Of a stretch of DNA of 64,000 bases, positions 10,522 to 10,659 are shown one piece after another (position 1 is the stretch's first letter; each line of letters starts with the position of its first letter). The translations under genes were made by a program, and so were the position numbers. This stretch comes from Aeromicrobium erythreum (lineage in GTDB: Bacteria > Actinomycetota > Actinomycetes > Propionibacteriales > Nocardioidaceae). The DNA lies in NCBI RefSeq assembly GCF_001509405.1, contig NZ_CP011502.1:2418001-2482000 (forward strand), given 5' to 3'. Below the pieces are notes generated by a model. That model was given only the letters and a program-made list of their open reading frames with translations. It had not been told where the DNA came from and did no database searches.

Positions 10522-10559
10522 CCGCGCCGAGGGGCCCGACCTAGTGGACCTCGACGCGG
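10522..10559 (-). promoter_or_regulatory. leuA leader hairpin, probable attenuator element
   Basis: In the leuA leader RNA an 11-bp stem forms between CCGCGUCGAGG (10559-10549), which overlaps codons 9 to 13 of the leader peptide, and CCUCGGCGCGG (10532-10522), with one G-U pair and a 16-nt loop. The 5' arm begins two bases after the third consecutive leucine codon, so a ribosome waiting for charged tRNA-Leu would cover it. The 3' arm also contains CCUCGG, able to pair with CCGAGG in the leuA Shine-Dalgarno region. No U-tract follows the stem, so the exact mechanism is open. Confidence 0.6.
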
Positions 10560-10585
10560 CAGAGAAGGAGTCGGCTCGCGTACAT
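10541..10585 (-). CDS. leucine leader peptide of leuA
   Basis: A 14-codon reading frame, MYASRLLLCRVEVH, ends in TAG 75 bases before the leuA ATG. Three consecutive leucine codons (CTC CTT CTC) are the hallmark of a leucine attenuator. It appears leaderless: the -10 hexamer TAGGCT (10593-10598) is seven bases before the ATG and there is no Shine-Dalgarno sequence. Leader peptides ahead of leuA are known in actinobacteria. Stalling on the Leu codons would disrupt the stem at 10522-10559. Confidence 0.75.
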   Translation of the reverse strand: MYASRLLLCRVEVH

Positions 10586-10659
10586 CGCGGCCAGCCTACC
10601 CCACCGTCCGCGGGGACCACCACGCTGCAGCGGTGGGCGGGCTCGGACAGACTGGGGTC

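Follow-up and report, generated by a model that had tools for sequence, protein, structure and literature searches.

In the window (the whole 64,000-nucleotide stretch of DNA analysed here), leuA is preceded by a LEU element, the RNA element described by Seliverstov et al. in 2005 (PMC1262725), and this element most likely acts as a translational attenuator by toggling anti-Shine-Dalgarno strands. It lies directly upstream of leuA and combines a leader open reading frame (ORF) carrying a run of leucine codons with a pseudoknot, GGTCGG/CCGACC. The leader and its folded RNA probably let the cell make the leucine enzyme only when leucine is scarce. According to Seliverstov et al., LEU elements precede leuA in most Actinobacteria, and one lies in a transposase (PMC1262725). 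The window shares with their element the site before leuA, the Leu-run peptide and the pseudoknot; a further feature that they proposed, pairing between the Leu run and the Shine-Dalgarno (SD) sequence of leuA, is weak in the window. The 2005 text, by which the two were compared, makes no mention of leaderless starts, rare codons, pairing of the stem 3′ arm with the SD sequence, or copies at leuB or leuC.

Anatomy of the leuA leader

The leader ORF (codons ATG TAC GCG AGC CGA CTC CTT CTC TGC CGC GTC GAG GTC CAC TAG) starts 120 nt before the leuA ATG, with 75 nt between its stop and the leuA start (Table 1). An earlier note on this DNA had claimed three consecutive Leu codons in a leader ORF beginning seven bases after TAGGCT, and its description and coordinates were verified. 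Its "perfect" 11-bp stem, here called H1, does begin two bases after the last Leu codon with all 11 positions paired, but one pair is G-U, and 10 are Watson-Crick. In the run, the rare CTT codon stops 5 nt short of the stem, the distance also found in most relatives. Only two ORFs of 8 to 25 codons with an ATG or GTG start contain LLL in the 64-kb window, and of these only the leuA leader combines a TANNNT box with an 11-bp stem downstream of its Leu run. More broadly, the earlier interpretation is supported in its leucine leader, leaderless-type spacing and alternative pairing; it had missed the pseudoknot, the identity with the LEU element and the pairing of the Leu run with the ribosome site that was proposed in 2005.

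Table 1. Features of the leuA leader region, in window coordinates
Feature	Position	Strand	Remark
-10-like box TAGGCT	10593..10598	minus	7 nt before leader ATG
Leader ORF MYASRLLLCRVEVH (then stop), 14 codons, probably leaderless	10541..10585 (ATG 10585, TAG 10541)	minus	conserved in relatives
Three-Leu-codon run CTC CTT CTC; possible sensor and possible anti-Shine-Dalgarno strand	10562..10570	minus	
Stem H1 5′ arm CCGCGTCGAGG, within leader ORF	10549..10559	minus	
Stem H1 3′ arm CCTCGGCGCGG; CCTCGG part able to pair with CCGAGG at leuA ribosome site	10522..10532	minus	
Pseudoknot strand 1 GGTCGG, in H1 loop; first G is the G of leader stop TAG	10536..10541	minus	
Pseudoknot strand 2 CCGACC	10503..10508	minus	
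CCGAGG, partner of H1 3′ arm, overlapping leuA Shine-Dalgarno	10477..10482	minus	
leuA Shine-Dalgarno GAGGA	10476..10480	minus	
leuA, 2-isopropylmalate synthase (long type), most likely start 10465	8699..10465	minus	Pfam and NCBIfam

A classical transcription attenuator, with an intrinsic terminator ending in a U-tract, was set aside: a scan of positions 10440-10680 gave 0 terminator-like sites, and no U-tract follows the stem, as the earlier note had said. Searches of Rfam gave no match reaching the gathering score in window positions 9500-11500 and no match at six related loci; an ASdes match on the opposite strand was rejected at 20.8 bits against a cut-off of 40. The in-frame ATG at 10513 was rejected as the leuA start, since the SD sequence fits 10465. 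This ATG sits in the linker, in frame with leuA, and a gene caller may pick it as the leuA start; an open in-frame ATG occurs at its place in 2 of 29 parsed loci (L001, from the window's own genome, and L002).

Conservation among relatives

LeuA was present in 39 of 39 genomes, the window's own included. Judged by the named neighbours of its LeuA, the window's genome would belong to Propionibacteriales, probably to Nocardioidaceae. Leaders with at least three consecutive Leu codons were found at 28 of the 30 loci fetched (own genome again included). At L006 and L012 an insertion splits the Leu run, with the frame and CTCCTTCG beside the stem kept. A script parsed 29 of the 30 loci, each with a leader and 10 or 11 stem pairs; at the thirtieth, L008, inspection by eye shows matching stem arms apart from one bulged base. 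The earlier note had named as grounds for giving up its claim that close relatives lack the Leu run and the stem, and no such loss was seen. The leader peptides of two species, at L006 and L191, share VLLSPVEGLL, with frame and stem kept, and at L006 the DNA resembles a short mobile palindromic repeat.

Across an evenly drawn sample of the phylum, long-type LeuA was detected at E 1e-100 in 80 of 396 genomes. The element model, R1, strongly matched 51 of 85 loci (L031-L115), matched one weakly (L090) and did not match 33, all of which come from genomes labelled outside the window's class. Among named leuA loci, the best 80 of 593 all match R1. Genome-wide at E 0.01, R1 matched in 49 of the 396 phylum genomes; the three weakest of these matches (G062, G222 and G236) look like chance, and low-scoring matches in the window's own genome (L243 and L244) were rejected, the open frames in both sets running through with no leader-like stop. 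The 162 leuA elements analysed below are those with a model match or a leader, the 33 unmatched loci among L031-L115 being excluded. Seven of them were left unparsed (L008, L057, L090, L224, L190, L152 and L225), and the 155 parsed elements reduce to 148 distinct leaders. Second leuA copies are found in G088, G263 and G354 (L325-L327), and both leuA genes of such genomes have an element of their own.

Promoter and leader start

Of the 148 distinct leuA leaders, 146 have a TANNNT box at a distance of 6 to 10 nt upstream of their start codon, a figure somewhat inflated because the script that set leader starts favoured those with such a box; the same spacing occurs at 21 of 3472 ATG or GTG triplets in the window (0.6%). 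The leaderless-type promoter spacing proposed in the earlier note recurs in relatives. An SD-like match of 4 nt stands at the usual place before the leader in 23 of 148 cases, and one of at least 4 nt at the leuA start in 138 of 148, where starts were chosen partly by SD sequence. Judged from these patterns, the leader ORF is probably leaderless. The S. lividans leuA leader is reported, in passages of PMC8079986, to be leaderless and without a typical Rho-independent terminator. A scan of window positions 10440-10680 for a full sigma-70 consensus promoter gave 0 sites, which leaves the -10 box as the one sign of a promoter at the window leader.

Covariation of the stem and pseudoknot

The isolated window hairpin folds better than 200 of 200 shuffles (z, -3.5). 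The folding energy of the whole 146-nt leader is ordinary (z, -0.14; 88 of 200 shuffles at least as good) and was dropped as evidence because it does not rise above shuffles. In the minimum-energy fold of the whole leader the 11-bp stem is absent and CCUCGG of the 3′ arm pairs with CCGAGG, which is the alternative state of the earlier note.

In an alignment of 77 chosen elements, 98.7% of H1 cells are paired and both sides have changed at 7 of 11 pairs; for H1 and the pseudoknot together, each of five measures is higher than in any of 500 shuffles or any slid version. With 25 of the 30 leaders (L006, L008, L012, L025 and L029 excluded), no more than 2 of 500 shuffles do as well on four of these measures; on the remaining one, further pair types, 75 of 500 do, and it does not stand out. 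Because sliding blurs alignment-based counts for the pseudoknot (77.2% of cells), we relied on partner swaps. Swapped partners reached the score of the own partner in 0 of 2000 trials, both in 37 leuA clusters (80% similarity) and in 17 clusters of the second-site elements described below. The pair types include GGTCGG/CCGACC, GGCCGAC/GTCGGCC, GACCGGC/GCCGGTC, GTCCGG/CCGGAC and GGCCAG/CTGGCC, and in the window a 7-bp alternative, TAGGTCG/CGACCTG, is also present. The last Leu codon lies 5 nt from H1 in 139 of 148 leaders and 2 nt from it in 9, and in 145 of 148 the leader stop codon follows the 5′ arm of H1 at a distance of 2, 5 or 8 nt.

Candidate pairings at the leuA ribosome site

The earlier note put forward that the 3′ arm of H1 can alternatively pair with the ribosome site of leuA, and this pairing covaries. 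Own partners score 14.81 against 13.20 for swapped ones, and 1 of 2000 swaps in 37 clusters reaches the own value. In the control pairings, swaps reach the own value far more often (5′ arm with SD, 1170; loop with SD, 1453; 3′ arm with leuA codons, 1868; each of 2000). On all 148 leaders, 0 of 1000 swaps reach the own 3′ arm/SD value, but the loop/SD control is also raised there (1 of 1000) because relatives repeat, so that only the clustered test can be trusted. Examples of the pairing are CCTCGCTG/CAGCGAGG, CCTCGG/CCGAGG in the window, and CCTCAC/GTGAGG. The pairing is not universal among leuA leaders. For 3′ arms starting CCTCCC (47 leaders, mostly from Streptomyces) the SD match is at most 4 bp in 47 of 47, and a match of 5 bp or more is found in 62 of the other 101. 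Counted by position in 90 GAGG leaders, the 3′ arm/SD pairing exceeds permutation at positions 6 and 7 and does not at position 5; position 8 cannot vary.

Support for the pairing of the Leu run with the SD sequence is weaker and mixed by comparison. Swaps reach the own value in 35 of 2000 trials with 37 clusters, in 50 of 1000 with 148 leaders and in 4 of 200 in another test, and the duplex in the window is weak (-6.4 kcal/mol). Recoding the run with the ordinary Leu codons of leuA weakens the SD-core duplex from -9.01 to -7.57, with 0 of 200 recoded runs reaching the own value; in a wider-window duplex test, recoded runs pair as well as real ones (-11.53 versus -11.66).

Sister elements ahead of leuB and leuC

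The same genome carries a second LEU-like element outside the window (G000:C1:1505618-1505719, plus strand; locus L229, 1019-1120; R1 E value, 2.2e-6). Its leader, MRKQLVVIACRGGAS, is of the leuB type, with codons CTC GTA GTC ATC and a TAGGGT box. Its H1 has 11 pairs, and a pseudoknot GGGCCA/TGGCCC can be made out by eye. Downstream of it lie a 31-codon ORF, MNTYPIEWGPAHLRDDAVTPAVEPAERPDDN, and then leuB (NF002898). The tiny ORF between leader and leuB is conserved as ...EWGPAHLRD...RPDDN or ...RDNGGE... (L229 and leuB loci among L275-L324), and the two examples compared with NCBIfam, MNTYPIEWGPAHLRDDAVTPAVEPAERPDDN included, gave no match at E 1.

At least two R1 matches were found in 41 of 49 genomes of the window's genus, and most genomes of the genus have a Leu-only copy at leuA and a Leu/Val/Ile copy at leuB. 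By a motif test, 27 of the 28 second places fetched from the genus lie before leuB and one (L295) before leuC. The same test on 64 fetched places called 43 leuB, 6 leuC and 9 leuA and made no call for 6; this count excludes L240-L244, and some of the nine leuA places had been fetched on purpose. The leuC-type elements have LLL leaders directly before leuC (L231-L234, L236 and L295), the gene at L231 being recognised also by Pfam (Aconitase family). LEU-like elements with Leu/Val codons precede a short ORF at L235, L237 and L238, and at L235 this ORF has a match to PF08502, the allosteric (dimerisation) domain of LeuA, and to no other part of that enzyme (E value, 2.4e-6).

The SD sequence of the tiny ORF covaries with a strand upstream of it in the same leader. 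For 42 of 43 leuB leaders (L290 is without the small ORF), 0 of 500 swaps reach the own value, and in 22 clusters 0 of 2000 do. The helix is 3 to 12 nt long and has 8 or more in 17 of 42 leaders, as in CTCTCCTGA/TCAGGAGAG and TGCTCCTTCTCG/CGAGAAGGAGCA. A search of open-access papers found no leuB or leuC leader of the LEU kind in Actinobacteria. As far as these searches show, it is new that a LEU-type fold with Leu/Val/Ile codons stands before a tiny ORF and leuB, as it does here and in other genomes of the genus, and before leuC elsewhere.

Rare codons in the leaders

The 525 codons of the Leu runs comprise 240 CTT, 193 CTC, 91 CTG and 1 TTG. In the bodies of 126 leuA genes, CTT makes up 0.6% of Leu codons and CTG 75.7%; in 26 long ORFs of the window the shares are 0.7% for CTT, 48% for CTC and 49% for CTG. 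The last codon of the run is CTT in 125 of 148 leaders and CTC in 23. The preference for CTT in leuA leaders could be explained by rare-codon sensing or by complementarity of CTCCTT to the SD sequence. In second-site leaders (17 clusters), 10 of 23 Val codons are GTA and 4 of 13 Ile codons are ATT, and in window ORFs GTA is 0.9% of Val and ATT 0.7% of Ile codons, which favours rare-codon sensing over SD complementarity. Element leaders are biased to rare codons of the amino acids that they would sense.

A model of translational attenuation and its alternatives

Either the H1 3′ arm (CCUCGG/CCGAGG) or, more weakly, the Leu run could mask the ribosome site of leuA. With leucine short, a ribosome would stall on the Leu run, above all on the rare CTT, and would cover the run and only the base of H1. 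A standard ribosome footprint extends about 12 nt downstream of the first base of the A-site codon. By this geometry, the upper CGAGG/CCUCG half of H1 can stay paired during the stall, leaving no masking strand free, and leuA would be translated. With ample leucine, the ribosome would reach the stop a few nucleotides past the H1 5′ arm, melt H1 and the pseudoknot, and depart; the masking strands would then occupy the ribosome site and turn leuA off. A ribosome placed at the leader stop covers the 5′ arm and pseudoknot strand 1, and since a stall on the Leu run would leave CGAGG/CCUCG paired, stalling would be the ON state.

We also folded leaders with footprints imposed, a calculation that omits the pseudoknot and covers 138 of the 148 leaders (SD match of at least 4 nt). 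The mean openness of the SD sequence over 33 clusters is 0.20 with no footprint, 0.38 with the first Leu codon in the A site, 0.31 with the last Leu codon and 0.23 at the stop. Paired differences relative to the stop are weak (first Leu codon, 19 positive and 7 negative clusters; last Leu codon, 16 and 8), and the window's own leader has the opposite sign, with 0.25 when stalled on Leu versus 0.61 at the stop. The outcome should be sensitive to footprint size, since a footprint at the stop takes in two bases of the 3′ arm. Given the weak paired differences and the reversed sign in the window, the direction of the response is one that we infer.

Control could instead be exerted on transcription, which we consider unlikely. 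Ample leucine would free the leader of ribosomes and Rho or another factor would stop transcription before leuA, with translation or stalling protecting the RNA. A factor of this kind would be needed for premature ending, as there is no intrinsic terminator; the leaderless S. lividans leuA leader, reported without a typical one, fits (passages of PMC8079986), and the title of a 2026 paper puts a mycobacterial upstream ORF (uORF) under a translational platform together with Rho (PMC12810186). The downstream partner with which the H1 3′ arm covaries is, however, the ribosome site itself, which a purely Rho-based switch would not need, and in 132 of 148 leaders 110 to 150 nt separate the leader start from the leuA start, leaving such a switch little room. 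More improbable still, in our view, is the protein-binding element that Seliverstov et al. favoured, citing S. coelicolor mutants, in which a regulator (candidate ML1624, helicase-like) would bind the pseudoknot and the peptide would be incidental (PMC1262725). That paper, citing Craster 1999, mentions S. coelicolor leuA leader mutations with some effect inconsistent with classical attenuation and, elsewhere in its text, leucine-codon mutations without influence on regulation. We count these mutants against the translational attenuator, and the codon mutants, like the conservation of the pseudoknot by covariation, are what a binding protein would lead one to expect. Yet the leader ORF, the Leu run, the rare codons, the stop position and the -10 spacing are all conserved, L006 and L012 keep the frame despite a split run, and the leuB-type sister leaders exchange Leu for Leu/Val/Ile codons, as a codon sensor would. 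Least probable of all, and very much so, is a leader that chiefly boosts leuA translation through ribosome reinitiation or loading, with no leucine sensing. Such a role has been proposed for leader genes in general with Actinobacteria as an example, but the proposal, in the part of PMC4833913 that sets it out, concerns 10 to 11 bp from leader stop to gene start, compared with 75 nt here, and it leaves the Leu run, the rare codons and the masking strands unexplained.

The comparison gives the LEU element joints that can be tested: the probable leaderless start, the constant spacing between rare Leu codons and stem, and the covarying pairing of stem and ribosome site. It also suggests a wider regulon under one RNA design (leuA, leuC, and the tiny ORF with leuB). 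We find the case evenly balanced for the LEU element being a reusable translational sensor module, made of a leaderless ORF with rare branched-chain codons, H1 and the pseudoknot, which Actinobacteria have placed before leuA, leuC, a stand-alone ORF for the LeuA regulatory domain, and the tiny ORF with leuB. Its codons would have been retuned from Leu to Leu/Val/Ile with rare CTT, GTA and ATT, and its output would be an anti-Shine-Dalgarno strand swap, not a terminator. If true, this bears on leucine synthesis in Actinobacteria and on attenuator design in organisms rich in leaderless mRNAs.

Relation to known leader systems

Our literature search found no tested mechanism for a LEU element. 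The nearest tested system known to us, as far as passages of the citing papers describe it, is the set of mycobacterial leaderless polycysteine uORF attenuators (Canestrari et al. 2020, via PMC9031893 and PMC13236596). These have a short leaderless ORF with consecutive sensed codons and downstream control, a design that the window leader probably shares; they differ in sensing cysteine, not leucine. At the M. tuberculosis ilvB1 attenuator, as presented in part of PMC13236596, a peptide senses charged tRNA and its LVVI codons resemble those of the leuB-type leaders, but the attenuator ends in a Rho-independent terminator, and none was found at the window leuA.

Leaders of leuA have been published for C. 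glutamicum and C. diphtheriae (passages of PMC8709942, PMC4046766, PMC3890552 and PMC5784534). LeuL of Corynebacterium glutamicum is likewise a leucine-run leader before leuA described as an attenuator; it differs in its peptide, MTSRANLLLLRRGGSQRS, and in being treated, in passages of PMC8709942 and PMC4046766, as transcriptional attenuation. LeuL1, the leuA leader of Streptomyces lividans (MRFGLLLLSCRGEGL), is reported as leaderless, as the window leader probably is, and, like it, without a typical Rho-independent terminator; it belongs to another species, and the passages of PMC8079986 that describe it give no tested structure or mechanism. The LeuL1 peptide of S. lividans is also found at many Streptomyces loci of the present set.
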